From assembly GCF_013085255.1 (NCBI RefSeq), contig NZ_JABFCX010000003.1:753288-817287 (forward strand): DNA of 64,000 nt, in the 5' to 3' direction. This stretch comes from Parvularcula mediterranea (GTDB taxonomy: Bacteria > Pseudomonadota > Alphaproteobacteria > Caulobacterales > Parvularculaceae). Shown here piece after piece: positions 4,087-59,465 of the stretch. The notes under the pieces are model-generated. The model searched no databases. It was not told the DNA's origin and saw only the letters and a program-made list of their open reading frames with translations. The first letter of the stretch is position 1. Each line of letters starts with the position of its first letter. Position numbers and translations under genes: made by a program.

Positions 4087-4290
4087 AGGTTCTCCGGCAG
4101 GAATAAGAGGAAGTGGCCGCCCCTACCCCCGGAACCGGCCAAATGCAAGCGGCGCGACCGTTTCACAAAGGATATCTTGCATCGCAGCAACCCCGGAGTC
4201 GTGGAGCGCCAAAACCGGTCTGGACGCCCTTCGGCGAAAGGGGCGATAGTGACGACGAGGGGCAGTAAGCCCTAGCTGGAGGGGCTCACC

Positions 4291-11225: not shown

Positions 11226-11228
11226 GCG

Positions 11229-12763: not shown

Positions 12764-12772
12764 GGGAATCTC

Positions 12773-14857: not shown

Positions 14858-17128
14858 TTGTTTGAGCAGCGCCAGGAACAGAGGCTCCGCCTCCTCCTCG
14901 TCAGCCCTTCGGTCATCATCGCGCTGATCGCGGCTTTCGCCATTCTCTCCGCCTCCACCCCCGGTGCGCCGGTGCGGGAGGCGATCTTCGACATCATCAT
15001 GCGCCTCGCGCCGCGTCCCGTGGTCTCCGAGCTGCCTGTCGCCACCGTCCTCATCGACGAGGAGAGCGAAGAGCGCCTCGGCGACTGGCCATGGCCGCGC
15101 AACGCTTTCGGCGCGCTGATCGACAGCGCGGAGACCGCAGGCGCACGGTCCGTCCTGCTGACGACCTCCGTGGCAGGCGACGACCCCCTCTCCCCCGACG
15201 TGATCGCGCGGCGGTGGATGGAGATCCGGTCCGGCGAGACCGCGGACCGCGTCGCGGCCCTCTCGGTGCTGCCCTCCACCGACCTCGTCCTCGCCCGGGC
15301 AGCTGCTGGCGGCCCGGTCGGCCTTGGCATCGGTGAAGAGCTTTCCCCCTCGAACGCAGACGTCAGCTGGTCGCGGGTCAGCTTCGAAGGCCGCCCCTGG
15401 GCCCGGATCGAAGGCGCGGACACCGGCGTCGGCTTTATCGCCGTCCCCTCGATCCTAGGCCGCAAGACCCTTTCGGCAGAGCTCCGTGAAGCCGAGCTCC
15501 CGATCGTCGCCGCCCTGCCCGAAGACCCGGACGGCCGTGTGCGGAGGGTTGCTCCCCTCTATGCGGGCCGGGATATCGTAGCGGCGACGCCGGGCCTTGG
15601 TGCCCTGACGATCGACGGCGAGGTGGTGAGTTTCACCCCGGCCGCGACAGCCGTCTCGAACGCTGGCGCCCCGGTCTCTTCCTTCCGCATCGGCGGCGGT
15701 CCTCTTATCGACCTCGACGGGCGGTCGGAGTTCAGATTCTGGATGCCTCAGGAGATCAGTGTGCCGAGCGTGCCTGCCTGGCGCCTCCTTGAAGACCCCG
15801 ACGCGTGGGGCTCCGCCCTCAGAGGCCGTCACGTCTTTATCGGCGCAGCGCTCGATGAAGAGGGCCTCGTCCGAACCGCGCGCGGCACCCGTCCGTCAGC
15901 GGAGGTTCACGCCCTTCTCGCCCAGCAGATCGCGGTCGGCGAAGCGCCGATCAGGCCCGACTGGGGCGGCTTTGCGGAAGCGTTCTCTGCAGTGCTCATC
16001 GGTGTGCTGGCTGTTCTCTCGGTGATCTACGTGCCGTCAGCGCTCGCGGTCGCCGTGTCGCTGACCCTTGCGCTCCTGAGCTTCCTCGGGGCCTTCCTGA
16101 TCTTCCGCTCAACAGGCCTGCTGCTTGATCCTTCGCCGGGTATCTTCGCGGCGCTCGGAGGCCCGCTTGCAGTCGGCGCCACGGTCCTGACGAACATGGT
16201 CGTGCGGGACGATGTCGTACGCGGAGCGTTCCACGGCGCCCTGCCCCAGAAGGCCATGCGCAAGCTGCAGGCACACGGAGGAACCAAGCTCCTTTACGGC
16301 GTCCACCGTGACGTCACGGTCCTCTCATGCGCCTTCCAGCTGCCCTCTTCTCTCATCCGTCAGTTCGAGGAAGATCCCCGCGACTACGTCCTCTTCAAGG
16401 CCTCGGCCAATGACCGCCTGCGCCGGACGATTCTCGAGCATGAGGGCACCGTCGATTATGGCGAGGACGGACGGCTTCTTGGTTATTGGAACGTGCCGCT
16501 CGATGAGCCGAAGCACATCGAGCTCGCCTGCGCCTGTGCCCTCAAGATGCTCGACGACGTCTCCGCGATCAGCCAGCAGGTCGCCGGCAGCCACCATGTC
16601 GGCCCCGGCGGATCGCTCGAAGAGCTGGCAGACGGCAGGATCGAAATCGGCATCGCGTCGGGTCCATGCTTCGCCGGTCCCGTCGGCCTTGGCGGCCGGA
16701 ACCGTTACGCCGCGCTCGGCCAGCCGGTGAGCTTCGCGGGCCGCCTGCGCGCACGGTCAGAGCTTTATGGCCCGGCGATCCTGACCGACGCGAAGGTCTA
16801 TGACGCCCTCCGTCACCATTACGCCTTCCTCGATCTCGACTTTGTCCGTCGCGAGTATGAAGGCCAGCCAGAGATGATCTACGGCCTCGTCGGCAACCCG
16901 TTCTTGAAGGCGTCGAAAACCTTCCGTGCACTGGCCGATGTCCAGCGCGACCTTCTCGCCGCGTGGAAAGAGCGCGACCTCTCCACGGCGACCCGACAGC
17001 TCCAGAAGCTGCGCGGCATCCCCGGGGTGCCCCAGCCCTACGTCGATCTCTTCGAGAAGCGAATCATGAACGCACGCCTTCAGAAAGCACGGCGTGACGA
17101 AGACCAGGCCGAGATCCTCGGACCGTAA
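14858..17128 (+). CDS. CHASE2-domain membrane protein with degenerate class III cyclase domain
   Basis: A 756-residue sensor. One TM at the N-terminus (about 20-40), an extracytoplasmic CHASE2 domain (VATVLIDEESEERLGDWPWP ... WGSALRGRHVFIGAALDE), then three hydrophobic segments (about 370-460) and a C-terminal class III nucleotide cyclase-like domain. In that domain the first metal Asp is lost (VTVLSCAFQLP), the adenine Lys is Asp (VDYGEDG), the adenine Asp is Gln and the transition-state Asn is Ser (ALGQPVSFAGRLR); only the second Asp and the Arg remain. It is therefore unlikely to make cAMP or cGMP by itself. The start TTG 14858 follows AGGAG at 8 bases; TTG 14825 is an alternative. Divergent from mlaE. 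Confidence 0.85.
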   Translation: MFEQRQEQRLRLLLVSPSVIIALIAAFAILSASTPGAPVREAIFDIIMRLAPRPVVSELPVATVLIDEESEERLGDWPWPRNAFGALIDSAETAGARSVLLTTSVAGDDPLSPDVIARRWMEIRSGETADRVAALSVLPSTDLVLARAAAGGPVGLGIGEELSPSNADVSWSRVSFEGRPWARIEGADTGVGFIAVPSILGRKTLSAELREAELPIVAALPEDPDGRVRRVAPLYAGRDIVAATPGLGALTIDGEVVSFTPAATAVSNAGAPVSSFRIGGGPLIDLDGRSEFRFWMPQEISVPSVPAWRLLEDPDAWGSALRGRHVFIGAALDEEGLVRTARGTRPSAEVHALLAQQIAVGEAPIRPDWGGFAEAFSAVLIGVLAVLSVIYVPSALAVAVSLTLALLSFLGAFLIFRSTGLLLDPSPGIFAALGGPLAVGATVLTNMVVRDDVVRGAFHGALPQKAMRKLQAHGGTKLLYGVHRDVTVLSCAFQLPSSLIRQFEEDPRDYVLFKASANDRLRRTILEHEGTVDYGEDGRLLGYWNVPLDEPKHIELACACALKMLDDVSAISQQVAGSHHVGPGGSLEELADGRIEIGIASGPCFAGPVGLGGRNRYAALGQPVSFAGRLRARSELYGPAILTDAKVYDALRHHYAFLDLDFVRREYEGQPEMIYGLVGNPFLKASKTFRALADVQRDLLAAWKERDLSTATRQLQKLRGIPGVPQPYVDLFEKRIMNARLQKARRDEDQAEILGP

Positions 17129-17149
17129 GCTCTGAATGGAGAAGAGCGC

Positions 17150-17794
17150 TTAGCGCGCGCTGGTGGCTTCGGCGACGGAGTTCACCGGCTCGCCGCCATC
17201 AAGCCTAACGGAAAGAGCGTCAGCCGTGCGGCCAAGCTCCATGATCGCCTGATTGAACTGCTGCTTCACCCGGCGGATCTCGTCCCGGGAGACGCCCTCG
17301 TCGCGCTTGGCGAGAAGAAGCAGCGCCTCGGCATAGACGATGCGGCAGTGGCGCGCTTCGACAATGGCGTCCTCGATAGTCCTGAGATCCGTCGGCAGCG
17401 GCTCCATCGCCGTCGTAGCCGTGCGGCCCTTCTGGGCCACGTTCCACGCAGCGGCGAGGGTCTGTTCAAGGTCACGGCGGACCTCGAGGGCGACATCGCC
17501 TTCCAGGCTGTCGACATAGGCCGCAGCCTGGTGCTTCGGAGAGGTCACCGAGCCGCCAAAGAGCAGCGTGACGAAACCGTCTTCACGGTCTTCCGCAGGG
17601 GTCCAGGGACGCTCTTCAAGCTTGGCCAGCGCAGAGCGAAGCTCTTCGCGCTCGCGGGCGTCCTCTTCAGCGATCGAGGCCTTGGTCATCCCGGGGATCG
17701 ACGGCATCGACACTTCCACGGACGCACAGCCCGTGACGGCGCAAAAGCCCACACCAAGAAGAAGCGCTCGAACGATGACGGCCACCCTGCCCAT
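17150..17794 (-). CDS. Hypothetical lipoprotein
   Basis: A 214-residue protein from ATG 17794 with signal peptide and lipobox AVTGCAS (Cys23). After the anchor come SMPSIPGMTKASIAEEDARE and a mostly helical, charged body (EERPWTPAEDREDGF, DEGVSRDEIRRVKQQFNQAI). I do not recognise a family. Upstream in-frame codons to 17971 would overlap the divergent proline iminopeptidase gene and destroy the signal peptide, so the later ATG is preferred. It converges with the CHASE2 gene, with 21 bases between the stops. Probably periplasmic, lipid-anchored to a membrane; function unknown. Confidence 0.65.
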   Translation of the reverse strand: MGRVAVIVRALLLGVGFCAVTGCASVEVSMPSIPGMTKASIAEEDAREREELRSALAKLEERPWTPAEDREDGFVTLLFGGSVTSPKHQAAAYVDSLEGDVALEVRRDLEQTLAAAWNVAQKGRTATTAMEPLPTDLRTIEDAIVEARHCRIVYAEALLLLAKRDEGVSRDEIRRVKQQFNQAIMELGRTADALSVRLDGGEPVNSVAEATSAR

Positions 17795-17886
17795 TAGAAA
17801 TTTCTGCCCCACGACCAACGCGGGCACTCTCTGGACAATTTGGCTCTTCGCCCCATTGCCCACACGTCCCATGTGGTTAGACGGAG

Positions 17887-17892
17887 TATAAT
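17887..17892 (+). promoter_or_regulatory. Candidate -10 element for the proline iminopeptidase gene
   Basis: TATAAT is a perfect -10 hexamer, 30 bases before the ATG at 17923, in the intergenic space shared with the divergent lipoprotein. No good -35 is seen 16-18 bases upstream, so an activator or weak promoter is implied. Confidence 0.35.
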
Positions 17893-17922
17893 CACAACCC
17901 GAGTTGCAGCGCAAAGGCTTCC

Positions 17923-18876
17923 ATGGCGAGATCTTCATTCTATCCCCCCGTGGAGCCGTTCCGGCGCGCACGCCTTCAGGTCTCTCCGCTTCACGAGATC
18001 TACTACGAAGTCAGCGGAAATCCTGACGGAAAGCCAGTCGTGGTGTGCCACGGCGGTCCCGGCGGTGGGTCCACGCCCTCGATGCGTCGCTACTTCGATC
18101 CCGAGCATTACAAGATCGTCCTCTTTGATCAGCGCGGCTGTGGCCGCTCGATGCCCCACGCCGAATTGCGCGAGAACACAACATGGGACCTTGTCGCCGA
18201 CATGGAGCAATTGCGGCGAAACCTGGGCATCGAGCGCTGGCAGGTGTTCGGCGGTTCGTGGGGATCGACCCTCGCCCTCGCCTATGCGCTCACCCATCCC
18301 ACCCGGGTGTCCGAGTTGGTCCTCAGGGGCATCTTCACCCTGAGAAGGTCCGAGCTTTTGTGGTTTTACCAGGAAGGCGCGAATTGGATCTTCCCTGAGG
18401 AATGGCAGGACTTCCTCGCCCCCATCCCTGAAGCCGAGCGCGGCGACATGATGGACGCCTACCGCAAGCGCCTCACCGGCGACGATGAACGCGCCAAGCT
18501 CGAGGCGGCCAAGGCCTGGGCGGTCTGGGAGGGGTCGACAGTGTCCCTCCACCCAAACAGGGAGCGCATGGACAGCTTCGCGGGCGAACGCTTCGCCCTC
18601 GCCTTTGCGCGGATCGAGAACCACTACTTCACGAATGGCGGCTTCTTCGACGCGGACGACTGGATCATCGCCAACGGAGGCAAGCTGGCGGGTATCCCCG
18701 GCACCATCGTGCAGGGCCGATACGACGTGGTGACGCCGATGAAGTCTGCGTTTGAGCTCCACAACGCCTGGCCGGGGTCGATCCTCAAGGTGATCCCTGA
18801 CGCGGGCCACGCCGCCTCAGAGCCCGGCATCGTCAAGGCGCTGATCGAAGCCACCGACCTCTACGCCAAAGACTAA
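17923..18876 (+). CDS. pip: Proline iminopeptidase
   Basis: An alpha/beta-hydrolase of the S33 family that removes N-terminal proline from peptides in the cytoplasm. The 317-residue protein has normal length. Visible motifs: oxyanion-hole HGGPGGGSTPSMRRYFDP, VLFDQRGCGRS, nucleophile elbow GGSWGSTLALAYA (Ser near residue 110), catalytic Asp in VQGRYDVVTP, and His in PDAGHAASEPG. These match Xanthomonas/Serratia-type Pip closely. The gene stands alone with its own -10 element and is followed immediately by a strong terminator. Confidence 0.95.
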   Translation: MARSSFYPPVEPFRRARLQVSPLHEIYYEVSGNPDGKPVVVCHGGPGGGSTPSMRRYFDPEHYKIVLFDQRGCGRSMPHAELRENTTWDLVADMEQLRRNLGIERWQVFGGSWGSTLALAYALTHPTRVSELVLRGIFTLRRSELLWFYQEGANWIFPEEWQDFLAPIPEAERGDMMDAYRKRLTGDDERAKLEAAKAWAVWEGSTVSLHPNRERMDSFAGERFALAFARIENHYFTNGGFFDADDWIIANGGKLAGIPGTIVQGRYDVVTPMKSAFELHNAWPGSILKVIPDAGHAASEPGIVKALIEATDLYAKD

Positions 18877-43930: not shown

Positions 43931-44680
43931 ATGAGCAGCACGACCACGACCATCGACCCCGAAGAGGTCGAAAAGTTCGAGAAGATTGCGCAGGAATGGT
44001 GGGACCCGCTCGGGAAATTCAAGCCGCTTCACAAGTTCAATCCGGTTCGCCTCGGCCTCATCAGGGACCAGCTCTGCGAGCACTTTGGGCGTGACCGCTT
44101 CGCCAAGAAACCCCTTGAGGGGCTCCGGCTTCTCGATATCGGCTGCGGCGGCGGTCTGGTTTCCGAACCCATGGCAAGGCTCGGCGCGTCCGTGACCGGG
44201 ATCGACGCTGCCGAAGGCAATGTGAAGACCGCAAGGGTGCATGCGGAGCAATCAAAGCTCGATATCGACTACCGCGCAACGAGTGCGGAGGATCTCCTCG
44301 CATCGGGAGAAGAGCCTTTCGACGTCGTCCTCAACCTCGAAGTTGTCGAGCACGTCGCCGATATCGGCCTCTTCCTCGGGACGTCCGCCAAGCTCCTCAA
44401 GCCCGGCGGGATGATGGGCATGGCGACTCTCAACCGTACACTGAAGGCTGCAGCTACAGCCGTCTTCGCTGCGGAGTATGTTCTCCGCTGGCTGCCGATC
44501 GGCACCCATGACCCGCGCAAGTTCGTGAAGCCCTCGGAAGCCAAGAGGCACCTGACGGATGCTGGCCTAAAGATCGTCGCAGAGCGCGGCCTCACCTACC
44601 TGCCGCTACTCGACAGCTGGCGCGTCGGCGAGGATATGTCGGTCAACTACATGCTGTTTGCGGAGAAGCCGGAAGCTTAG
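43931..44680 (+). CDS. ubiG: Ubiquinone biosynthesis O-methyltransferase UbiG
   Basis: SAM-dependent O-methyltransferase for both O-methylation steps of ubiquinone synthesis. The 249-residue protein is of normal length. N-terminal FEKIAQEWWDPLGKFKPLHK is diagnostic; SAM motif I is RLLDIGCGGGLVSEPMARLG, followed by GIDAAEGNVKTARVHAEQS and NLEVVEHVADIGLFL. Its stop codon TAG is shared, on opposite strands, with that of the EF-hand gene (CTAG). Confidence 0.96.
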   Translation: MSSTTTTIDPEEVEKFEKIAQEWWDPLGKFKPLHKFNPVRLGLIRDQLCEHFGRDRFAKKPLEGLRLLDIGCGGGLVSEPMARLGASVTGIDAAEGNVKTARVHAEQSKLDIDYRATSAEDLLASGEEPFDVVLNLEVVEHVADIGLFLGTSAKLLKPGGMMGMATLNRTLKAAATAVFAAEYVLRWLPIGTHDPRKFVKPSEAKRHLTDAGLKIVAERGLTYLPLLDSWRVGEDMSVNYMLFAEKPEA

Positions 44681-45231
44681 CCGCGCCGACCCCCGCGGCC
44701 GCCACCACCGCCGCCTCGACCGCCGCCGCCGCGTTGGCCACCCGCCTGCCCGCGCGCTGGCGGCTGCATAGTCACCAGAAGCTCTGAGCGCTGAAGGATA
44801 CCGTCGCCATTCTCGTCGAGTTCGACAAAACGCTTGGTGATAAAGCTCTCGAACTCTGACAGGGAAACCGAGGCCGAGCTGTCCCGGTCGAAGCTGCTCG
44901 TCCCGATAGGGGCATTCCGCGTGCCGAAGAACGTCTCGGCCATCGCAGACACTTCGATCGGCCGCAGGACACCGTCGCCCTCACCATCGGCAGCAGCGAA
45001 GATCGCCTTGCCCGCAAGGATCATCTCGTCCTGCGTCACGGCACCGTCGCTGTCCTGATCCATGCCTGCGAAGAACAGGCTCTCGGGTCGCGCGATCTGC
45101 TGGGCCGAGCGCATCATCGACGCAGCGTCGGCGCGTCCGCCTTGTTGGCCGCCAGGGCCTCCGCGCGGCGGCTCCTGTGAGGCGCAGGCAGCGGCGAGAG
45201 GTAGGGCGAGAAGGAAAGAGCGAGCGCGCAT
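44677..45231 (-). CDS. EF-hand lipoprotein with Gly/Arg-rich tail
   Basis: A 184-residue protein with a lipobox LAAAC (Cys16), placing it lipid-anchored in the periplasm or on the surface. Four EF-hand-type loops are visible: DQDSDGAVTQDE (58-69), DGEGDGVLRPIE (82-93), DRDSSASVSLSE (115-126) and DENGDGILQRSE (139-150). The third lacks two Ca ligands, so three probably bind calcium. The last 25 residues are nearly all Gly and Arg (from 160), an unusual tail for a lipoprotein. Function unknown; Ca-dependent surface role is possible. Confidence 0.8.
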   Translation of the reverse strand: MRARSFLLALPLAAACASQEPPRGGPGGQQGGRADAASMMRSAQQIARPESLFFAGMDQDSDGAVTQDEMILAGKAIFAAADGEGDGVLRPIEVSAMAETFFGTRNAPIGTSSFDRDSSASVSLSEFESFITKRFVELDENGDGILQRSELLVTMQPPARGQAGGQRGGGGRGGGGGGRGGRRG

Positions 45232-45302: not shown

Positions 45303-47417
45303 TCAAAGCTTCGCAGACCGGCGGATGACCTTGCCTCCTGCCCAGCGCAGGGTCGTGGCGGGGAAGCGTCCTGTGCTGTCGAGAGCCACCAGCTCTGCCG
45401 AGCAGCCCTCGGCATCCCCCGGCAGGGCGCGCGAACGGAGGATGACCAGCGCAGCCCCGTCGCATGCCGCGGCCAAGCCTTCTCTTCCTGAAAGAATGAT
45501 GACCTGGCCTTCGCTCAGGCCACCGACAGAGCAGGCTACGTCTCGAGCGCGGCAAGGCGCATCGAGAGACTTTACTTCAACCCGCGATCCGATGGCCTGA
45601 AGCCATGCTTCGACCGTGAAACGGTCGCGGCGCTTGGACAGGATTGCGAGGGGCCTGGCAGGGTCGCCTGTGACCACACCGACGTTCCGAAGGTCCCGGC
45701 TGATGTAAACGTCAGGGGGCGGAGCGGAAAAACTGAGCGGCAGTGCAAGCGCCAGAAACGCTGCCCCGGCCAACCTCCACGGCGCCCTGAGGAGCGCGAG
45801 GGTGAGCAATCCCGCTGACGCAAGAACGATGCCCGCTGGCGCGAGCTGCGGCACCAGCCCCGCTGCACCGGGAAGGCCCGCCGTCCACTGAGCAATCCTG
45901 AGTACCATCCCTAGACCCTGCCCGACCAACAACAGCACGAGGGCATCAAGCCCGAGGGGCATCAGGAACATGGCGAGCACCAGCGCCGGCATCACCGCGA
46001 GGGTCACAATCGGCATGGCGAGCATGTTGCCAAGGAGCCCATAGCTCGCGATCCTGCCGAAGTGGAACGCCGCGAACGGACCCGTCGCAAGCCCTGCGAG
46101 AAGGCTCGTCAGGAACAGCCCTCCGGTGAAGCCCATCGCTTTGGTCAATCGTGTCCGTTCCCCTTCCCTCGGCCAGCGCTCCTCGATGAAGGAGAAGGCA
46201 GCGATCAGTGTAATGACGGCGGCAAACGACATCTGAAAACCTGGCGCCGCCACGGCTTCTGGCCGGATCACCATGATGATGATCGCGGCGACGGCAACGT
46301 TCCTGAGCGAGATACCCCGGCGATCGAAGAGGATGGCGCCGAAGACCACCGCCGCCATGATATAGGCCCGCTGCGCCGACCATCCGCCACCGGACATGGC
46401 AAGGTAGAAGAGCCCGCCGAGGAGTGCTCCCGCCGCTGCCCATTTCTTGACGGGAAAATTGAGGGTCAGCCGCTCACTCCTGACGAGCGCGGTCCTCAGG
46501 CCCCAGAAAAGGAACCCGCAGACAAGCCCCATATGAAGCCCCGAAATCGCAAGAAGGTGCGCAAGCCCTGCATCCCTCAGGGCACTGACGGCAAATTCAG
46601 GAATACGTTCCCGCTTGCCCGTGGCGAGGGCCGCAGCGATGGCGCCTTCGGGACCGCCGATCACGCCTTCGATCCTGTCCGCCACCTTCTCGCGAAGGTC
46701 CTGCACCGCGTCGCCGAATCCGCTGCCGCCTCGCTCAAGGACGGCGGGAGGGGCGTAGGAGAAGCCGGAACCACCAATGCCCTGATAGCGCATCTGGCGG
46801 GAGAAATCATATCCTCCGGGTACGGCAGGCCCGGGCGGAGGGCGAAGTTCTGCCCTTATGGAAACACGATCTCCTGCCCGCGCATCGCCTTCGCCGCGCC
46901 AGACAATCCGCACCTTGCGTGGCAGCTCCGAGCGCTCAAGTCCCGAGAGGCTTTCGACACGCACCGTGTACCGCGTATCCCCTTCACGCTGCTCGACCTT
47001 GGCGACATGGCCAGTGACGGTCACGGCCTCCATACCCGCAGGGACAAGCGGCGCTTCTACAAGCTCTGTCCTCAGAGCAATCAGCGCCATGCCGCCAAGC
47101 ACCATGCTCATCATGCGGAAGCCGAGCATCGGGCCATCGCGCATCTGCCGCACGGAAATCGCCCAGCTGGCCAGCGTCACACCCAGAAGAGGCAGAAGGA
47201 GAAACAGCCCAGGCGGCTCATCCGTCCCAAGCCAGAGAAGGATCCCCGCCGCCATCAGGCAGGGCGCCAAAAGGATGAACCGCCGCGCCTCCATCTCGGC
47301 CCAGTCTTGGGCGATCTCTAAAACCCGCGCGAGGCCGACCCGACGCGGCTTGGCGAACAGCTCGCCTGCGCCTAAGCGCGCCGAATTCCGAAGCCGTTCG
47401 TTCCAGGATAAAGCCAT
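45303..47417 (-). CDS. comEC: ComEC/Rec2-family DNA-uptake channel
   Basis: An inner-membrane channel that moves single-stranded DNA into the cell. In the 704-residue form the N-terminal part holds a DUF4131 region and OB-fold-like stretch (RVSIRAELRPPPGPAVPGGY), then the Competence domain (LAHLLAISGLHMGLVCGF, VLFDRRGISLRN-like segments). The C-terminal metallo-beta-lactamase-like region (from about 570) lacks an HxHxDH motif, so a nuclease role is unlikely. ATG 47417 lies in the same CATG as the gltX start on the other strand; weak ribosome site, so the true start may be further inside. Related competence genes are not in the window. Confidence 0.88.
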   Translation of the reverse strand: MALSWNERLRNSARLGAGELFAKPRRVGLARVLEIAQDWAEMEARRFILLAPCLMAAGILLWLGTDEPPGLFLLLPLLGVTLASWAISVRQMRDGPMLGFRMMSMVLGGMALIALRTELVEAPLVPAGMEAVTVTGHVAKVEQREGDTRYTVRVESLSGLERSELPRKVRIVWRGEGDARAGDRVSIRAELRPPPGPAVPGGYDFSRQMRYQGIGGSGFSYAPPAVLERGGSGFGDAVQDLREKVADRIEGVIGGPEGAIAAALATGKRERIPEFAVSALRDAGLAHLLAISGLHMGLVCGFLFWGLRTALVRSERLTLNFPVKKWAAAGALLGGLFYLAMSGGGWSAQRAYIMAAVVFGAILFDRRGISLRNVAVAAIIIMVIRPEAVAAPGFQMSFAAVITLIAAFSFIEERWPREGERTRLTKAMGFTGGLFLTSLLAGLATGPFAAFHFGRIASYGLLGNMLAMPIVTLAVMPALVLAMFLMPLGLDALVLLLVGQGLGMVLRIAQWTAGLPGAAGLVPQLAPAGIVLASAGLLTLALLRAPWRLAGAAFLALALPLSFSAPPPDVYISRDLRNVGVVTGDPARPLAILSKRRDRFTVEAWLQAIGSRVEVKSLDAPCRARDVACSVGGLSEGQVIILSGREGLAAACDGAALVILRSRALPGDAEGCSAELVALDSTGRFPATTLRWAGGKVIRRSAKL

Positions 47418-48831
47418 GACCGCCGAGACTAAGCCCATTGTCACGCGTTTCGCACCGTCTCCGACAGGTTATTTGCACATAGGTGGCGCGCGAACTGCAC
47501 TTTTTAACTGGTTGATGGCTCGCGGAAAATCCGCACCAGCTGGATCGCAGTTCCTCCTCAGGATCGAGGACACCGACAGAGCCCGGCACAATGAAGAAGC
47601 GGTGGAAGCGATCCTCGATGGCCTCCGCTGGATGGGCCTCGACTGGGACGGCGAACCGCTGAGCCAGCACGCCCGCGCCGACCGTCACGCCGAAGTGGCC
47701 GACGAGCTGCTTGCGAACGGCAAGGCGTTCAAATGCTGGCTTCAGGGCGACGAACTCGACGCGGCCCGCAATGAGGCCCGTGAGAAGAACATCCGCTTCA
47801 CCTCCCCTTACCGCGACGGCGGCGAGGGCGAAGGATCTTTCGTCATCCGCCTCAAGGCCCCCATCGAAGGCGAGACTGTCGTGAAGGACGCCGTGCAGGG
47901 CGAGGTGCGCTTTCCCAATTCGGTCAGCGACGACACCGTCATCCTGCGTTCGGACGGCACCCCGACCTATATGCTGGCCGTGGTGGTCGACGACCACGAC
48001 ATGGGCGTCACCCACGTCATCCGCGGCGACGATCACCTCAACAACACGCCCAAGCAGCAGCATATCTATGAGGCGATGGGCTGGGACCTTCCGGTCTTCG
48101 CTCACGTCCCCCTCATCCACGGCGAGGACGGCAAAAAGCTGTCGAAGCGCCACGGCGCCCTCGGTGTCGAAGCCTATCGAGACCAGGGCTTCCTGCCTGA
48201 CGGCCTCCTCAATGGCCTTCTGAAGCTCGGCTGGTCCCACGGTGACGAAGAGATCATCCCGCGCGACAAGGCGCTCGAATGGTTCGGCCTCTCGGGCATC
48301 GGCAAGGCCCCGGCTCGGCTCGACCTTGAGAAGATGGCCGCGATCAACGGCCACTTCGTCCGCGAGCTCTCCGACAAGGACTTCGCTGAAAAGGCCATCG
48401 CGTTCCTCCCCGACGACCAGAGCGCCGACGTCGCTGAGCGTATCGAGCGCGCAGCGCCCTTCCTCAAAGAGCGGGTGAAGACCTTCTCAGACGCGGAGAG
48501 CGCCTGCGGGTTCCTGACCCTGACCCTGCCCTTCGAGATCACGGGCAAGGCCGCGAAGCCCCTCAAGAAGGAAGGCGCCACGGACACCCTCGCCGCCCTC
48601 GCTGCGGCCCTCGAAGGCGTCGAGGATTGGTCAGCCGCGACCCTCGAGCTTGCGATCCAGACCTATGCCGAGACCAATGGCCTTGGCTTCGGCCAGGTCG
48701 GCCCGCCGCTCAGAGCAGCCCTCACCGCCGGAAACCCCGCCCCAACCCTCGGCGAGACGCTGTTTGCCTTAGGACGTGAGGAGGCAATGGCCCGGATCGA
48801 GGCGGCGCAGGCTCTAGTAAAGGCTCAATAG
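47416..48831 (+). CDS. gltX: Glutamyl-tRNA synthetase
   Basis: Charges tRNA-Glu (and often tRNA-Gln in alphaproteobacteria). The 471-residue protein is of normal length, with the HIGH motif as FAPSPTGYLHIGGARTALFN and KMSKS as GKKLSKRHGALG. The ATG at 47416 has AGGATAAAGCC before it; a longer open frame upstream runs antisense to comEC and is not part of the gene. It is divergent from comEC with overlapping start codons. In many alphaproteobacteria gltX is followed directly by gltA; here a minus-strand cassette lies between them. Confidence 0.96.
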   Translation: MTAETKPIVTRFAPSPTGYLHIGGARTALFNWLMARGKSAPAGSQFLLRIEDTDRARHNEEAVEAILDGLRWMGLDWDGEPLSQHARADRHAEVADELLANGKAFKCWLQGDELDAARNEAREKNIRFTSPYRDGGEGEGSFVIRLKAPIEGETVVKDAVQGEVRFPNSVSDDTVILRSDGTPTYMLAVVVDDHDMGVTHVIRGDDHLNNTPKQQHIYEAMGWDLPVFAHVPLIHGEDGKKLSKRHGALGVEAYRDQGFLPDGLLNGLLKLGWSHGDEEIIPRDKALEWFGLSGIGKAPARLDLEKMAAINGHFVRELSDKDFAEKAIAFLPDDQSADVAERIERAAPFLKERVKTFSDAESACGFLTLTLPFEITGKAAKPLKKEGATDTLAALAAALEGVEDWSAATLELAIQTYAETNGLGFGQVGPPLRAALTAGNPAPTLGETLFALGREEAMARIEAAQALVKAQ

Positions 48832-49024
48832 GTTCCGCTTCCCTTGCGGGCCGTTCCGGGCGGTATAACCTCAGCAAATCAAAATAGATAAGCTTCTTCA
48901 TCCGAAGCCAGACGCCCCGAAGAGACAGCCCCGAGTGCTCCGTCAACAGCGTCTGGTAAAGCGCCTTGAAGCTGCCGCGGACCCGTCCGAGCGAGCGGTC
49001 GATCTTCTTCGATCCCTCAGCCAA
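48722..49024 (-). CDS. Small basic protein, third gene of the channel cassette (uncertain)
   Basis: A 100-residue frame starting at TTG 49024, three bases after the stop of the MotB/ExbD-like gene, with AGAGG upstream. It is basic (many Arg and Lys) and soluble in the first half (GRVRGSFKALYQTLLTEHSG, RMKKLIYFDLLRLYRPERP), Pro-rich in the second (PLLEPAPPRSGPLPP). The last 110 bases overlap antisense the end of gltX, so the true protein may be shorter or absent. No family recognised. If real, it is the product co-made with the channel pair. Confidence 0.4.
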   Translation of the reverse strand: MAEGSKKIDRSLGRVRGSFKALYQTLLTEHSGLSLRGVWLRMKKLIYFDLLRLYRPERPAREAEPIEPLLEPAPPRSGPLPPHVLRQTASRRGLGRGFRR

Positions 49025-49027
49025 GGC

Positions 49028-49555
49028 TCACGTCCTCTCGATACATTGCTGTCGAAGGCGGCTATACTCGCTGAAGTTCGACGGAAGAGCGATGTCGCCA
49101 ATTGCAGTCGTGCTGCGCAGGAGCACGGGACAGGTTGGCTCCTCAAAGACGTAACGCGCGAACAGCGTGCAGCGATCTTCTCCAAAACCAAGCGCTGAAG
49201 AGGCCTGACCGGAAATGCGCATCGCCTGCCGCCGGGCAATGCCAATATCCATGATCCGCGATGATGAAAAACTCGCTTTGAGCGCGGGGATGCGTTCGGA
49301 CTTGTCCCGTGCGACCGGGTCGGGGCTAGGCCTAAACAGTGTGCCTTCTTCGCGGATGATGACCCTGAAAAGCTCCGCCGGGCGGTCGTTCCCCTCGTCA
49401 TCAATGCGGGAGTGACAGGGCAGGAGCGTCAGCGTCTGATCCTTCGGGACCGCCTGGATCGTCGCGACGTATAGGATGAAGACGAAGAGCATGAACAGGA
49501 TCAGCTCGGTCATCGTCGACGCCACCACATCATCGCTACGTCCTGACCGAAACAC
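49028..49555 (-). CDS. MotB/ExbD/ZorB-like single-TM protein with novel periplasmic domain
   Basis: A 175-residue protein with a short cytoplasmic N-terminus, one TM (about 15-36, TELILFMLFVFILYVA), and a periplasmic domain. By placement against TolR/ExbD, the protonatable residue at the start of the TM is Glu17 rather than Asp. The periplasmic part has four Cys (PCHS, RCTLF, TCPVL, QQCIE), possible disulfides, and no visible OmpA-like peptidoglycan-binding motif. GTG 49555 overlaps the upstream stop (TAGTG), so it is coupled to the MotA-like gene. Likely stator partner of that channel; family not identified. Confidence 0.6.
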   Translation of the reverse strand: MFRSGRSDDVVASTMTELILFMLFVFILYVATIQAVPKDQTLTLLPCHSRIDDEGNDRPAELFRVIIREEGTLFRPSPDPVARDKSERIPALKASFSSSRIMDIGIARRQAMRISGQASSALGFGEDRCTLFARYVFEEPTCPVLLRSTTAIGDIALPSNFSEYSRLRQQCIERT

Positions 49556-50400
49556 TACCTCCGCCCCCTGGCGGTTTCAGCTTCGTCAATGATGCCTCGT
49601 AGTCGATCGAGCATGTGCGACAGCGAGTCCTCCACGCTGTCTGTGCTAATCTCGATTTTGCCGAGGCTCGTCGCGGCGTTTTCGATCTGCTGCGACGCCT
49701 GCTTAATCTTTCGCTCACTGTCGCTGGAGAAACCGGAGATCTTGTCGATCGACTCCTTCGCGCTCTCGACCTTAGTCTTCAGCGCAGACACTTCGCTTCC
49801 GACCGACCCATTGAAGTCCGACAGGTGCTGGTCGATCTTTCCCGTGGAGGTGCCGAGCTTCTGCACCGCTGCCTCGAACTTATCGAGCGTCGCCGAAGCC
49901 TGCTCCAGACCATCCGCGAGAACCGCCGCTGAGTTGTTAGATTGCTCCAACGCATCACCGGACTTCACGACGTAGGCGAACACATTCCGCAAGACGAGAC
50001 CGACAAGGGTCGTGGAGAGTGCAATCGCATTTGCCCGGACTAGCTCGGTGAAATCTCCAGCACTCTCATCAAGGCCGAAGCTGCTCAGTGAAACCGTCAG
50101 CGCCATAAGAGTTTGCGCGAAACCGAGAAAGTATATTGAATCAGTGAATGCTGATCTGACTGCTGGGTCCGGACCAACGACCAATCCGAACACTCCGAGA
50201 AACGCGACACCTAATAGCGCGTACGCGAAGATGATGAAGCCCGCGCCGAGAGCGTTAGCCCAGAGAGTTTGGCTTCGAGCAAAAAAAGGGTTGGCCGACA
50301 GTGCCGGGCCGAAAAAGGTCTCCATCGCGGCCGAAGCGGCCGGGTCCGTCATAGATACGAATGCGAAAATGCATGCGGAGAAAAAGAATACCCCGACCAT
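49555..50400 (-). CDS. MotA/TolQ/ExbB-like channel protein with cytoplasmic coiled coil (ZorA-like)
   Basis: A 281-residue membrane protein. TM segments at about 3-17, 49-75, 86-108 and 121-145; the last two carry the MotA/TolQ/ExbB pattern (FLGFAQTLMALTVSLSSFGL ... AIALSTTLVGLVLRNVFAYV). A predicted coiled coil covers 150-275 (KTKVESAKESIDKISGFSSD, KIKQASQQIENAATSLGKIE). MotA-type channel plus cytoplasmic coil resembles ZorA of the Zorya phage-defence system, though the coil is far shorter. It lies between gltX and gltA, which are usually adjacent, and base composition looks lower in GC than neighbours. ATG 50400 has no clear ribosome site; the frame is closed upstream. Confidence 0.65.
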   Translation of the reverse strand: MVGVFFFSACIFAFVSMTDPAASAAMETFFGPALSANPFFARSQTLWANALGAGFIIFAYALLGVAFLGVFGLVVGPDPAVRSAFTDSIYFLGFAQTLMALTVSLSSFGLDESAGDFTELVRANAIALSTTLVGLVLRNVFAYVVKSGDALEQSNNSAAVLADGLEQASATLDKFEAAVQKLGTSTGKIDQHLSDFNGSVGSEVSALKTKVESAKESIDKISGFSSDSERKIKQASQQIENAATSLGKIEISTDSVEDSLSHMLDRLRGIIDEAETARGRR

Positions 50401-50750
50401 GAAGCCGCGAAACGAAAACGTCCTGAAAAGTCGCCCCGCTCTACCCCTGCCCTTACAAAGAACCTACGCATCTGCCTCTGCCCTTTAAGGAGGTTAACGC
50501 TAAGGTAAGAAACTGCAATCCCGGATCGTTGGATGTTTACCGGGACGACAGACCGGGCCGCTCGCAGCGGCGAAAAGCAGCTTTTCGGCCTGATCCCCTG
50601 GACCTAGCCGAAGGTCGCAGAAACCCTACCTTGCGGTCTGGCAACAACTCACTATTGTCGCGCTGCACAACAGGGCGAGCCTTCGCGCTCGCTGAAACCC
50701 CCACGGCAGGTCGGCCCCATCCCGCACCGCCGCGCGAGGAGAGAATTCTT
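50401..50750. other. 350-base gene-free stretch before gltA with two adjacent hairpins
   Basis: Holds the leader of the MotA-like gene (minus) and of gltA (plus). Hairpins GCCGCT-CGC-AGCGGC (50557-50571) and GAAAAG-CAG-CTTTTC (50572-50586) stand next to each other about 165 bases before the gltA ATG. TTGCGG ... TATTGT (about 50631-50658) is a weak promoter candidate. GTTAA-N7-GTAA at 50493-50508 is one mismatch from a CtrA box and expected by chance. No tRNA or small-RNA identity could be assigned. Confidence 0.4.
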
Positions 50751-52040
50751 ATGGAAAGCAAGCTCGAACAGTCCGGCACCGCCACCATCGAAGGCAATGA
50801 CTTCCCGGTCTACAAAGGCACCCACGGCAACGACGTCGTCGACATCCGCGCCCTAACCAAGGCCACTGGCAAGTTCACCTTCGACCCAGGCTTCACCTCG
50901 ACCGCATCCTGCGAAAGCCAGATCACCTTCATCGACGGCAACGAAGGCACGCTCCTCTATCGCGGCTACCCGATTGAGCAGCTGGCCGAGAACACGGACT
51001 TCATCGAGAGTGCCTTCCTCCTCCTCGACGGTGAGCTGCCGACGAAGGAGCAGTGCGCGAAGTTCCGCCACGACATCACCTACCACACGATGGTGCATGA
51101 GCACTTCATCAAGTTCTTCGATGGCTTCCGCCGCGATGCGCACCCGATGGCGATCATGTGCGGCGCGGTCGGCGCGCTCTCCGCGTTCTACCACGACAGC
51201 ACGGACATCAATGATCCGGAGGCCCGCAAGATCGCGGTCCACCGCATGATCGCGAAGATGCCGACGATCGCCGCGATGGCTTACAAGTATACGGTCGGCC
51301 AGCCCTTCGTGTATCCGCGCAACGATCTCAGCTACACCGAGAACTTCATGCACATGTGCTTTTCGGTTCCGGCCGAGGACTACAAGGTCGACAAGGTTCT
51401 GGCCGACGCCCTCGACAAGATCTTCATCCTGCACATGGACCACGAGCAGAACGCGTCGACCTCGACCGTCCGCCTCGCCGGTTCGTCGGGCGCCAACCCG
51501 TTTGCCTGTATCGCAGCTGGCATTGCCTGCCTCTGGGGCCCGGCCCACGGCGGCGCGAACGAAGCAGCGCTCAACATGCTCGAGGAAATCGGCTCGGTTG
51601 ACCGGATCCCCGAGTATGTCGCCAAGGCGAAGGACAAGGACGATCCGTTCCGCCTGATGGGCTTTGGCCACCGGGTCTACAAGAACTACGACCCGCGCGC
51701 GAAGGTCATGCAGAAGGCTTGTCACGAAGTGCTCGAGGCGACCGGCATTCAGGATCCGCTCCTTGACGTTGCCCGTGAGCTTGAGAAGATCGCCCTCGAA
51801 GACGACTACTTCGTCCAGAAGAAGCTCTACCCGAACATCGACTTCTATTCTGGCATCACGCTGCGCGCGCTCGGCTTCCCGCGCTCCATGTTCACGCCGC
51901 TCTTCGCCCTCGCCCGTACCGTCGGCTGGATCGCCCAGTGGCGCGAAATGCTCGAGGACCCGAACCAGAAGATCGGCCGTCCGCGCCAGATCTACACGGG
52001 CGCCGCGAAGCGTGACTTCATTGCGATGGACAAGCGCTAA
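50751..52040 (+). CDS. gltA: Type II citrate synthase
   Basis: First enzyme of the citric-acid cycle, condensing oxaloacetate and acetyl-CoA. The 429-residue protein has normal length for the hexameric, NADH-sensitive type. Active-site blocks: [40 protein letters not shown] and [22 protein letters not shown] 50751 follows GAGGAGAGAATTCTT. The frame is open upstream to 50529 but lacks the ribosome site and conservation. A strong terminator follows. Confidence 0.97.
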
Positions 52041-52142: not shown

Positions 52143-52880
52143 ATGGCCAACGACATCATCCGCCAGCCCACCATCGGCATCCTTGGTGGGACAAGCCACG
52201 TCATCACCTCCGCCTACTATCAGGGCCTCAACGCCGCGATGCGACAGCGCCTTGGCGGCACCCACGTTGCGGAGACGCTCGTCCGGGGGATGGATTTCGG
52301 CCGCATCGGGAAGCTTGTGCTGGCCGAGGACTGGGATGCGCTGAAGAGCTATGTCGGCTCGGCCGTCGATGACCTCGAGCGCGGCGGTGCGGACCTTGTC
52401 ATCGGGTCCTCCAACACGGTCCACGAGATCATGGGCGAGGTCATGGAAGGCCGCGACGTCGCCTTCCTGCCGATCAGCACGCCCCTCATCGACGCGGTAA
52501 AAGCGTCAGGCCTCAAGCGCGTCGCCATGTTCGGCACCCGGAGCACGATGAACAACGGTCTCGTCATGCGCGAAGTGGAAGCGGCAACCGGCGCCACGCT
52601 GCTCTCGCCGAGGGAAGACGAGCGTGAAGAGATCAACCGCGTGATCTTTGAAGAGCTCTGCGAAGAGCAATTCCTGCCAAGATCCAGAGACCGCTACGTC
52701 GAGATCGCCCGAAGGCTGGCGCGGGACGAGGGTGCAGAAGGCGTCATCCTCGGATGCACAGAGATCATGCTATTGATCGATCAGGACAATATTCCTGAGA
52801 TGAAAGTGTTTCCGACTGGAAGACTTCACATCGAAGCGGCAGCCAACTGGGCAGCCCAACACGCAGAACGTGAAGACTAG
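52143..52880 (+). CDS. Aspartate/glutamate racemase-family protein (Ser/Cys active site)
   Basis: A 245-residue PLP-independent amino-acid racemase. N-terminal GILGGTSHVITSAYYQGLN and IGSSNTVHEIMGEV, then VILGCTEIMLLID near the C-terminus. The usual pair of catalytic Cys is split here: the second is Cys205 but the first is Ser90 (GSSNT instead of ACNT). E. coli YgeA has Thr at that place and is an active broad racemase, so activity is possible with altered substrate choice. Product could be D-Asp, D-Glu or another D-amino acid for the wall. Alone on its transcript, between two terminators. Confidence 0.85.
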   Translation: MANDIIRQPTIGILGGTSHVITSAYYQGLNAAMRQRLGGTHVAETLVRGMDFGRIGKLVLAEDWDALKSYVGSAVDDLERGGADLVIGSSNTVHEIMGEVMEGRDVAFLPISTPLIDAVKASGLKRVAMFGTRSTMNNGLVMREVEAATGATLLSPREDEREEINRVIFEELCEEQFLPRSRDRYVEIARRLARDEGAEGVILGCTEIMLLIDQDNIPEMKVFPTGRLHIEAAANWAAQHAERED

Positions 52881-52903
52881 AAGTCAACGCTCTTCTTAGG
52901 TGT

Positions 52904-52918
52904 GCAATTAGGTATTGC
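52904..52918. promoter_or_regulatory. Inverted repeat upstream of the PEP-CTERM gene
   Basis: GCAAT-TAGGT-ATTGC is an inverted repeat in an AT-rich leader 56-70 bases before the ATG at 52974. It could be an operator; no known consensus matches. Confidence 0.3.
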
Positions 52919-52973
52919 GATTTATTGATTTCCGTTTACTTTGCTCACGCAAATGTGATCAGGGGGAACGATC

Positions 52974-53687
52974 ATGAAGAAACTTCTTGCAGCCGCTTCA
53001 GCTGCTCTTGCCATCGGTGTCGTGTCTCAGGCTGCGGCCGCCACGGCCACCAGCTACGACGCCACATCTCACCAGCGGAGTGCTTCGGACAACCACAGCC
53101 TCTGGCTGCGGGGTTTCGAGAACGTTGTTGGCACCGCTCCGTCCAACCACCGCTTTGACTTCCTGCCCGACGGCACGTTCGTTCAGAATGGTGATGGCAC
53201 AGCCTCGCTGTCTGGTTCCGTCACGTCGCAAAGCGAAGCAGGCTCGGGCTTCATCGTCTCGCTGCTCCTCACCGACATCGGCAGCATCACGCCGACGGTG
53301 AAGGCATCGCACGGCCTGATGCCGGTCATCGACGAATACTACCAGGTCGGCGCTGGTTCGAAGCTCACGGGCTTCGGCGACTATGCAGGTCTCGTCCTGA
53401 ACCTGACGCAGAACACCGGCGGGAATAACCACTACTCCCAGCTTGGTGAGAGCGCAAACGACAAGACCGCCAACTACGGCTTCTCGACCTGGGTCTTCTA
53501 CCAGGCCGCCTCCGCAGCTGACGGCTGTACGTCCAGCTTCTGCGACAACGCACAATCCCGCCGTCAGGGTGACTTCAACCTCGACCTCACGGTCGATGTC
53601 GACAACATCGTGCCGATCCCCGGCGCTGCCGTCCTCATGGGCGCGGCTCTTGCGGGCTTCGGGGCTATGCGCCGCCGCAAAAAGTAA
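52974..53687 (+). CDS. Exported protein with VPLPA/PEP-CTERM-type sorting signal
   Basis: A 237-residue secreted protein. Signal peptide 1-23 (MKKLLAAASAALAIGVVSQA), then a Ser/Thr/Gly-rich, beta-type body with two Cys (DGCTSSFCDN). The C-terminus IVPIPGAAVLMGAALAGFGA then MRRRKK is a PEP-CTERM/VPLPA-CTERM signal: VPxPGA, a hydrophobic helix, and an Arg/Lys tail. It marks the protein for exosortase- or related protease-mediated processing and surface display. No exosortase gene is in the window. AGGGGGAA before the ATG is a strong ribosome site, and a terminator follows, suggesting high, independent expression. Confidence 0.85.
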   Translation: MKKLLAAASAALAIGVVSQAAAATATSYDATSHQRSASDNHSLWLRGFENVVGTAPSNHRFDFLPDGTFVQNGDGTASLSGSVTSQSEAGSGFIVSLLLTDIGSITPTVKASHGLMPVIDEYYQVGAGSKLTGFGDYAGLVLNLTQNTGGNNHYSQLGESANDKTANYGFSTWVFYQAASAADGCTSSFCDNAQSRRQGDFNLDLTVDVDNIVPIPGAAVLMGAALAGFGAMRRRKK

Positions 53688-57822: not shown

Positions 57823-58365
57823 TCAGAGCTGGTAACGGATTTGGTCAGCCCAGAAGCGCTCAAGACGCTCAAGGGTGACATTGGTGCCGTTCATCATCTC
57901 GCCCGACACGTCTCCGACCTTTTCGAGGCTTTGGAGGTGGCGGTTGAAGAGGCCGTCGATCTTGTCACGGACCGCAAAGCCAGCCGTCGTCAGGGACACA
58001 CGGACCGAACGGCGGTCACGCTCCGAGCGGGCGTGGGAAATGTAGCCGGCCTCAACGAGTTTTTTGAGGTTGTAGCTTACATTCGAGCCAAGATAGTGGC
58101 CGCGGCTACGGAGCTCGCCTGCCGTCAGCTCGCTGTCGCCGATATTGTAGAGGAGGAGCGCCTGGACCGCGTTGATATCCGTCTGGTCAACCCGTTCGAG
58201 TTCGTCCTTGATGACATCAAGGAGCTGCCTGTGCAGGCGCTCGATGAGCGTCAAAGTGCGCAGATAGATCGGATGGATTGCATCCTCTGCGGAATTCTCG
58301 TCGATGGTCTGCGCAGTAGCTTGGTTGGCCATTGTCTTGTTTCGCTCGTCTGAGGGTACGGACAT
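57823..58365 (-). CDS. MarR-family transcriptional regulator (LdtR-like)
   Basis: A 180-residue winged-helix protein. The core [40 protein letters not shown] and [20 protein letters not shown], with [20 protein letters not shown] for the wing, matches the alphaproteobacterial LdtR-type MarR regulators, which control cell-wall L,D-transpeptidase genes in Rhizobiales; assignment by recollection, so no symbol is given. Divergent from hemB across 101 bases containing a perfect palindrome, and upstream of hemA, so it may control haem genes or itself. A hairpin GCGGCG-CAT-CGCCGC with TTT (57798-57817) may end its transcript. Confidence 0.88.
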
Positions 58366-58421
58366 CGTGCTTCACCAATCCTGCACGATCAGTGTGAAGA
58401 ATTCGCCAACAGGGCACAATC

Positions 58422-58437
58422 TGTGACACCATTCACA
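58422..58437. promoter_or_regulatory. Perfect TGTGA-N6-TCACA palindrome between marR and hemB
   Basis: TGTGACACCATTCACA matches the CRP-type consensus exactly. It ends 29 bases before the hemB ATG and lies 57 bases from the marR start. A partial copy (TGTGA only, 58393-58397) is nearby. Candidate site for a CRP/FNR-family protein or for the MarR product. Confidence 0.55.
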
Positions 58438-58466
58438 AGCGCAAAAATCGCTCAAAACGGGTAATT

Positions 58467-59465
58467 ATGAAGAATATTGCTCCCAGCTTTCCAAGAACAC
58501 GGATGCGCCGACTTCGCCGCTCAGAAGGTCTGAGAGCGCTTGTCATGGAAACACGCCTCACGCCTAGCGATCTGATTCAAGGCGTCATTCTGAGAGAGGA
58601 TGATGACCCGGCAGACATTCCTGCGATGGGGGGTCTGAGAAGACTAACGATTGGTGAAAGCGTCGAATTGGCGCAACGCTGCGTTAACATCAATTTGGCG
58701 GGACTTGCGCTGTTCCCATTCACCAAGTCTGGAGACAGAGACGAGGGCGGAACTCTTGCTTTCGACGAAGACAACCTGATGTGCAGGGCGGCCCGCGCGA
58801 TCAAGGCAGCGGTTCCAGAAGCGGTCCTGATCGCCGACGTCGCCCTCGACCCCTATACGGACCACGGCCATGACGGCCTGATGGGCGAGGACGGGACGAT
58901 CCTCAACGATCCCACCGTCGACGCCCTTATCCGCCAGGCCAACGTCCTCGCAGGCGCCGGCTTTGACGTCGTTGCGCCCTCGGACATGATGGACGGCAGG
59001 ATCGGCGCCATCCGGGACGGGCTCGATGCGGAAGGCTTCGAAGACGTCGCGATCCTCTCCTATGCGGTGAAGTACGCCTCGGCCTTTTACGGCCCCTACC
59101 GCGATGCCGTCGGCAGCCGCGGGGCGCTGAAAGGCGACAAGCGGACCTACCAGATGAACCCGGCGAACGGCGACGAGGGCCTCCGCGAGGCTGCGCTCGA
59201 CGTCTCCGAGGGCGCCGACATGCTGATGATCAAGCCGGGCCTTCCCTATCTCGACATGGTCCGGCGGGTGAAAGACGCCTTCGGCATGCCCACCGTCGCG
59301 TTCCACGTCTCAGGTGAATACGCGATGCTGAACGCCGCTGCCGAAGCAGGCGCGATGGATTTCGACGCAGGCCTGATGGAGAGCCTCCTCTGCTTCAAGC
59401 GCGCAGGGGCTGACGCCGTCATCACCTACGGCGCGGAACACGCAGCGAAGCTTCTCGACGGTTAG
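58467..59465 (+). CDS. hemB: Delta-aminolevulinic acid dehydratase (porphobilinogen synthase)
   Basis: Condenses two 5-aminolevulinate to porphobilinogen, the step after HemA. The 332-residue protein has N-terminal FPRTRMRRLRRSEG, DPYTDHGHDGLMGEDG (Asp-rich metal site of the Mg-type, not the Cys-rich Zn-type), YAVKYASAFYGPYRDA and MLMIKPGLPYLDMV with the two Schiff-base lysines. ATG 58467 keeps the conserved RTRMRRLR block. The first 200 bases are visibly more AT-rich than the rest. Divergent from marR; converges with the flavin reductase, whose stop overlaps. Confidence 0.96.
   Translation: MKNIAPSFPRTRMRRLRRSEGLRALVMETRLTPSDLIQGVILREDDDPADIPAMGGLRRLTIGESVELAQRCVNINLAGLALFPFTKSGDRDEGGTLAFDEDNLMCRAARAIKAAVPEAVLIADVALDPYTDHGHDGLMGEDGTILNDPTVDALIRQANVLAGAGFDVVAPSDMMDGRIGAIRDGLDAEGFEDVAILSYAVKYASAFYGPYRDAVGSRGALKGDKRTYQMNPANGDEGLREAALDVSEGADMLMIKPGLPYLDMVRRVKDAFGMPTVAFHVSGEYAMLNAAAEAGAMDFDAGLMESLLCFKRAGADAVITYGAEHAAKLLDG

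Follow-up and report, generated by a model that had tools for sequence, protein, structure and literature searches.

A two-gene putative channel cassette between gltX and gltA of Parvularcula mediterranea resembles the core of an unnamed operon family often linked to nucleases

In the Parvularcula mediterranea genome two small overlapping genes, here called A and B, lie between gltX and gltA, and their predicted products resemble the two subunits of an ion-driven membrane channel. What such a pair might do at this locus, and how it came to be there, are the questions considered here. The window analyzed is a stretch of 64,000 nucleotides (contig NZ_JABFCX010000003.1 of assembly GCF_013085255.1, positions 753,288 to 817,287), and window coordinates are counted from its first base. 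An earlier sequence-only reading had described a MotA/ExbB-type protein plus an ExbD/MotB-type partner with an acidic transmembrane (TM) residue, and had proposed a minimal signaling or defense module. The observation was confirmed and the type of pair, with Glu as the acidic residue, is supported, whereas the interpretation is partly supported. We consider it probable (about 60%) that A and B form the core of an ion-driven inner-membrane channel or motor, likely of A5B2 composition, which represents a divergent and unnamed ZorAB-like family and was acquired horizontally.

The A-B pair and its insertion site

Both genes are encoded on the minus strand, and the stop codon of A shares one base with the start codon of B in the sequence TAGTG, as first described; a GGAGG lies directly 5' of the GTG start of B. 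Each gene scored best in its own frame (coding log-likelihood ratio per codon 0.140 for A and 0.138 for B, with next best frames at -0.011 and +0.002). These scores are under the mean of the 44 other open reading frames of the window (0.284, standard deviation 0.106) yet within their range. The GC content at third codon positions (GC3) is 0.681 for A and 0.705 for B versus a mean of 0.781 (standard deviation 0.035, minimum 0.686) for the same 44 frames.

Hydropathy analysis of A gave four candidate TM segments (best 19-residue stretches 1-19, 56-74, 88-106, and 119-137), the third and fourth of which are modest. The motif DSIYFLGFAQTLMAL...AIALSTTLVGLVLR precedes a C-terminal stretch of 133 residues that contains neither Pro nor Trp and in which, in the best of seven heptad registers, 71% of the a/d positions are hydrophobic versus 34% overall, so the four membrane helices and cytoplasmic coil originally proposed for A hold as predictions. 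B has one TM segment (residues 18-36) with Glu17 directly before it, at its edge, and four cysteines (Cys47, Cys129, Cys142, and Cys171). A Pfam profile search gave no OmpA match, which agrees with the earlier picture of a Cys-rich single-TM protein lacking an OmpA motif. Whole B had no match in Pfam, PADLOC, or NCBIfam at E up to 10 or in PHROGs at E up to 1.

The pair lies in an insert of about 1.8 kb. By eye, the insert begins just past the gltX stop codon and ends at about 50628, where sequence common with the conserved gltA upstream region of relatives sets in. In 23 of the 24 relatives in which the gltA locus was read, gltX is located no more than 1.5 kb upstream of gltA, and adjacency of the two genes is thus usual, as had been stated. 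The gap between them is 94-159 nt in eight congeners, eight of nine congeners having an empty site. Gene A had no match in any of 60 relatives searched, which leaves the present genome as the sole carrier among 61. Because of this absence, together with the usual gltX-gltA adjacency and the short gaps in the congeners, acquisition of the pair by horizontal transfer rather than by inheritance is supported, and the earlier suggestion to that effect is strengthened. The different composition also claimed for this DNA stood in part. The GC content is 0.55-0.59 over the insert versus 0.61-0.67 over the adjoining gltX and gltA genes, and GC3 of the pair is at the low end, but equally deep GC dips occur elsewhere in the window (at about 52500-53250 and 58000-58750) and GC alone therefore proves little on foreign origin. 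There was no promoter match, and three terminator matches were obtained (2.0 expected); no long direct repeat was found at the ends of the insert, and the insert DNA used as query gave no match in plasmids.

In the ninth congener (G001) an alpha/beta hydrolase-looking gene occupies the same gltX-gltA junction (L097, 12535-13812). Given this different gene, insertions may recur at this junction and bring in different cargo.

The g1-g2-A-B operon family and its nucleases

Back-translated peptides of A or B found no direct relatives in the genome-contig and viral-contig collections, and neither protein matched plasmids at 1e-3. The sole weak plasmid match of A (NZ_CP023066, E 6e-2) fell at a place later recognized as a family A gene. 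Against PDB sequences A alone gave weak, mostly coil-like matches (best E 0.019) and B gave none. Coil-driven matches of A (apolipoprotein, SMC, tape measure, ZorA, and JetC) were discarded as family evidence, and the match of P0002 in G411 (E 4.7e-4) was rejected as chance: it has an internal stop and lies inside a PTS enzyme I-like reading frame.

Residues 1-153 of A, searched against 398 genomes of the phylum, gave remote matches in three of them, with per-genome E values between 3.6e-5 and 5.3e-4. The loci, two of which are near-identical, are all operons in which a B with a TM Glu lies downstream of A. The operons carry two further genes. The g1 protein is about 480 residues long with membrane segments and coils (by eye), and g2 is about 275 residues with one TM and a conserved domain having a DxTD-like motif. 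We suspect a von Willebrand A-like fold for g2; a search of PDB sequences gave nothing useful and failed to confirm it. No library model matched A, g1, or g2 above cut-off (the window proteins and those of two relatives were tested), and no description of the g1-g2-A-B operon was found in the literature searched, the coverage of which largely excludes subscription papers. Judged by these comparisons, g1-g2-A-B is apparently a so far unnamed family and a fuller form of the window pair.

The relationship of the window pair to this family is carried mainly by A. A family hidden Markov model (HMM) built without the window sequence scored window A at 35.7 bits (E 3.6e-10), and hhalign aligned window A with the family at 96.5% probability (E 7e-10). 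The core motif of A, D-x-x-Y-[YF]-[LM]-G-[FL]..TL..L plus ..[ST]T..G, is present in window A, and D87, Y90, G93, T97, L98, L101, A127, T131, and G134 are invariant in the 18-row alignment that includes it. Window B is directly downstream of A, as in the family, and its Glu17, within STMTE, aligns with the LGLTMAE of family members. The pair thus shares with the family the A motif, the A-then-B order, and the TM Glu. It differs in that g1, g2, and the nuclease (see below) are missing, the coil is short, and the periplasmic domain is divergent. Since g1 and g2 were not found, we filed the pair as a divergent A-B relative rather than a full member. The window copy is a reduced form of g1-g2-A-B, the partners of which were either lost or never present. 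Two further comparisons of B were set aside. The pairing of Cys47 and Cys129 with the cysteines of the family PCW and CRF motifs, made by eye, was replaced in a global alignment by Cys129 and Cys142, and in a TM-only HMM test the shuffled sequences retained the TM segment, which made the control invalid.

The distribution of the family is patchy. A three-row A profile matched 13 of 385 genomes of the class, two of them too weakly to count. With an 18-row profile, matches were obtained in 6 of 299 genomes of the order and 4 of 274 of the phylum, the latter all of the same class; the window genome is included in all three counts. Searching plasmids by tblastn with A of either of two relatives gave 24 of 72,556 each time (Rhizobium 12, Paracoccus 6, Sinorhizobium 3, Microvirga 2, and Tistrella 1). 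Two viral contigs also bear the operon, one with a serine recombinase-looking gene upstream, and carriers are alphaproteobacterial wherever their rank is known. The B protein of one relative had no match in plasmids at 1e-3 or in phages at 1e-2, and a g2 scan of viral contigs found nothing.

All four genes are found in the order g1-g2-A-B at 28 non-duplicate loci (L043, L044, L060-L068, L070, L072-L074, L078-L083, L092-L096, L098, and L102), which are not all independent, several Rhizobium plasmids being close relatives. L072 was counted although its g1 is cut by a contig end. Left out were L076 (G256; no A match with the family HMM), L077 (G304; a partial A of 103 residues only), L071 (g1-g2-A and the start of B, then the contig end), L069 (a duplicate of L080), L042 of G685 (a near-copy of L041/L044), and L075. 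The last has an A-B pair without g2 directly upstream; its contig begins 223 bases before A, and the test applied there did detect g2 fragments from two other loci. A TM Glu is present in all 27 tabulated family B proteins (four fell outside the search pattern and were visible by eye) and in those of L098 and L102. Eight family B proteins have a Cys-containing end instead of OmpA.

A nuclease is linked to 16 of the 28 complete loci. In L067, L072, and L073 an SNase domain (PF00565) is fused behind the OmpA domain of B (Pfam E 3.4e-13, 9.7e-7, and 3.5e-5, all above cut-off), and in L102 (4391-6196, minus strand) B consists of OmpA followed by a GmrSD_C/HNH-type domain (E 2.3e-11, above cut-off). 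The OmpA domain of these fused proteins is above cut-off in L072 and L102 and below it in L067 and L073. At 12 further loci (L043, L044, L060, L061, L062, L065, L066, L078, L079, L081, L083, and L096) the operon has an SNase gene no more than 1.25 kb away. SNase matches are infrequent in these genomes (33 in about 57 Mb of 13 operon-bearing genomes, or about 0.6 per Mb, counted without G318, G555, and G685). An SNase is fused or within 1.25 kb in 6 of the 13 genomes versus about 0.05 expected by chance, a figure that allows about 7 kb per operon and a distance limit set after the loci had been seen. The nuclease seems exchangeable among loci, SNase versus HNH-type. As B has one TM, a short N-terminus, and the OmpA domain beyond, the fused nuclease should be periplasmic.

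Other genes were noted around some of these operons. In L060, a viral contig, the stretch 2456-5228 ahead of the operon holds a serine recombinase-looking gene followed by a small gene and then an SNase gene, with a second SNase gene at 1599-2141. In L074 the operon is near a gene that reads as a type III CRISPR cas10 (10939-13563), and in L043 a trio of kinase-like, phosphatase-like, and von Willebrand-like genes (15241-18547) lies downstream of the operon; both assignments were made by sequence reading only.

Relation to known channels and alternative explanations

A tentative placement of the pair in the MotA/TolQ/ExbB superfamily comes from several comparisons. PF01618 scored 7.3 and 12.6 bits on fragments of window A versus a cut-off of 22.9. 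It is also the commonest Pfam match in family A, where 9 of 18 rows matched within an E limit of 10, the best at 0.0027; for these rows the comparison covers counts and best E-values. We estimate that this best match too falls under the cut-off, because a match at E 0.011 corresponded to 15.9 bits. Among the seven PDB sequences listed for the family profile are a 696-residue MotA/TolQ/ExbB-domain protein and three PomA proteins, matched over TM3-TM4 (E 1.1-3.9), plus two unrelated proteins. The 696-residue protein is probably ZorA, given that it has the same length as the Shewanella ZorA of the Zorya report (PMC11890865). The TM3-TM4 core of the family aligns with known superfamily members in a consistent position with weak scores. 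By profile, the pair appears to be neither TolQR/ExbBD, flagellar, nor Zorya: no search placed it in an ordinary TolQ/TolR or flagellar group, and profile comparisons with TolQ/ExbB and MotA were uninformative. Window A is not among the five PF01618 proteins of its genome, which sit elsewhere and read as TolQ-, ExbB-, and MotA-like, two being MotA-like. Like MotAB and PomAB, the pair has four hydrophobic segments in A, a single-TM B, and a weak PomA match of the family profile, but it lacks adjacent flagellar genes and has a long coil past the last TM.

Among known systems, ZorAB is one of the closest. As described in PMC11890865, it likewise pairs a MotA-like channel subunit, which ends in a cytoplasmic coil, with a single-TM partner that has an acidic residue in its TM and an OmpA-type domain (as in most family relatives), and it is likewise coupled to nucleases. 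The differences are a TM Asp reported for ZorB versus Glu in the pair and the family, other operon partners, no bridging by sequence profiles, and a window B without an OmpA match. In ZorAB the nuclease is recruited from the cytoplasm, whereas in the family relatives it is encoded by a neighboring gene or fused behind the OmpA domain of B, and some neighboring nucleases have a signal-like N-terminus (by eye). That the pair is a true Zorya without effectors, or a ZorAB core with effectors encoded elsewhere, we consider very unlikely. The PADLOC ZorA profile (ZorA2) matched A over TM3 and the coil at 1.2e-6, the helix order is similar, and of the superfamily structures matched by the family profile the probable ZorA ranks first. 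The PADLOC match vanished once the coil was removed, the TM part giving none, and B had no match in PADLOC either. A ZorA2 search of the own genome with a strict E limit of 1e-20 was negative, and profile comparison with one ZorA2 gave only 8-12% probability (E 0.0026-0.0043). The known partners of Zorya include ZorF/G. No Zorya partner (ZorC/D, ZorE, or ZorF/G) is present in the insert, which is flanked by gltX and gltA; the rest of the genome was not searched for them.

The main rival explanation is that the pair is the decaying relic of a four-gene operon, drifting without function after loss of g1, g2, and the nuclease. Consistent with decay, those partners were not detected in the genome, window A is on the longest branch of the tree and is the shortest complete A among those translated (281 residues; the next has 341), and A occurs in only one of the 61 genomes searched. 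We nevertheless think a relic unlikely: both frames are open, with their overlap, the GGAGG ahead of B, and coding scores best in frame all intact, the TM Glu and the TT..G motif are kept, and L075 provides another A-B pair without g2 directly upstream. We also judge it improbable that the pair is an ExbBD/TolQR-like energy transducer of the envelope, working for the outer membrane or the cell wall and not in defense. The weak PF01618 match over TM3-TM4 would put it in the same superfamily, the periplasmic domain of window B is small and compact without OmpA, and some family operons on plasmids sit amid ordinary metabolic and transport genes. The long coil past the last TM and the Glu differ from ExbBD/TolQR, however, the genome has its TolQ- and ExbB-like proteins elsewhere, the distribution is patchy and plasmid-rich, and relatives have nuclease fusions.

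Several observations weigh against a channel core of the g1-g2-A-B type with a role in defense. Window A forms by far the longest branch of a short tree, with weak support. The whole-B family HMM gave only E 0.6 on window B, and a Cys-domain profile from the eight Cys-containing B proteins scored it weakly (8.0 bits, a value equaled by one shuffle in 2000). As the cysteine pairing of window B also shifts with the alignment method, a kinship of its periplasmic domain with these proteins is tentative. Profile searches of the own genome for g1 and g2 gave no match at E 1; such a negative, lacking a positive control, shows little, and HMMs of these families do match at the other loci. No SNase (PF00565) was found in the own genome. 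The AlphaFold models had mean predicted local distance difference test scores of 42.8 for A (two-row alignment) and 44.7 for B (single sequence), a quality inadequate for fold comparison. All superfamily matches are weak: one family A protein matches CcmF_C (E 0.0017) better than any matches PF01618, and the top PDB sequence for the family profile is an ABC transporter (E 0.036) over another stretch. Twelve of the 28 complete operons lack an SNase inside the 1.25-kb limit, the scan of the neighborhoods having covered SNase. Finally, a role in defense is what we infer from the linkage to nucleases together with the patchy, plasmid-rich spread.

The features of the locus are given in Table 1. 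The small basic frame 3' of B, also noted in the earlier reading, is doubtful as a gene. Its coding score is -0.154 overall, a non-coding value (+0.087 outside gltX), it overlaps the final 110 bases of gltX in antisense, its best library match has E 0.22, and it had none in plasmids; on these grounds it was not counted as a gene. Elsewhere in the window, 52974-53687 encodes a protein with the end VPIPGAAVLMGAALAGFGAMRRRKK, which we take to resemble a VPLPA/PEP-CTERM sorting tail, and the product of 44677-45231 (minus strand) is small, looks secreted, and has EF-hand-like repeats as well as an end rich in Gly.

Table 1 Features of the gltX-gltA locus in window coordinates
Feature	Position	Strand	Description
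gltX	47416..48831	+	Left flank of insert
Insert	48833..50628		Approximate extent, from by-eye comparison with the gltX-gltA gaps of relatives and from lower GC
Small basic frame	48722..49024	-	3' of B, reaching over the end of gltX in antisense; probably no gene, or a cut remnant
Gene B	49028..49555	-	GTG start, 175 aa; one TM segment with Glu17, four cysteines in the predicted periplasmic domain
Gene A	49555..50400	-	ATG start, 281 aa; four hydrophobic segments followed by a predicted cytoplasmic coil of about 130 residues
gltA	50751..52040	+	Right flank of insert

Proposed mechanism and its significance

Ion-driven 5:2 motors are known from flagella, type 9 secretion, gliding, Ton-dependent uptake, and Zorya, and in the last the Asp of ZorB is packed onto a ring of Ser/Thr residues in ZorA (PMC11890865). 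By analogy, the Glu of B and the conserved T131 of A would stand in for these residues. If A and B form such a 5:2 assembly, Glu17 of B would carry an ion past a Ser/Thr ring of A (S129-T131), the periplasmic domain of B could sense the envelope or anchor to it, and the five A tails would come together as a rod in the cytoplasm. Complete members often have an SNase or HNH-type nuclease; there the motor would be tied to this enzyme, which is probably periplasmic and the probable effector. Since g1, g2, and the nuclease were not found in the window copy, its output would have to be the rod or the ion flow itself.

A broader proposal, which we advance tentatively, is that the family is a form of mobile immunity in which a proton- or sodium-driven 5:2 motor with a TM Glu governs an exchangeable periplasmic nuclease (SNase or HNH-type, at some loci fused behind the peptidoglycan-binding domain). 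Incoming DNA, whether from phage, plasmid, or free in the medium, would then be cut while still outside the cytoplasm. The window would illustrate that the motor core, as a cassette of two genes, can move and persist by itself.

Beyond what the sequence-only reading had proposed, the pair emerges as a reduced form of a larger operon family that is often linked to nucleases, sometimes by fusion to the predicted periplasmic end of B. The conserved Glu, the two partner genes g1 and g2, and these fused nucleases set the features of the family. If the proposal is true, the family would show that enzymes beyond the inner membrane can be coupled to 5:2 motors, and it would serve as a compact model for how a nuclease is gated by such a motor, with the two-gene copy of P. 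mediterranea as what would be the smallest form for studying the motor core.

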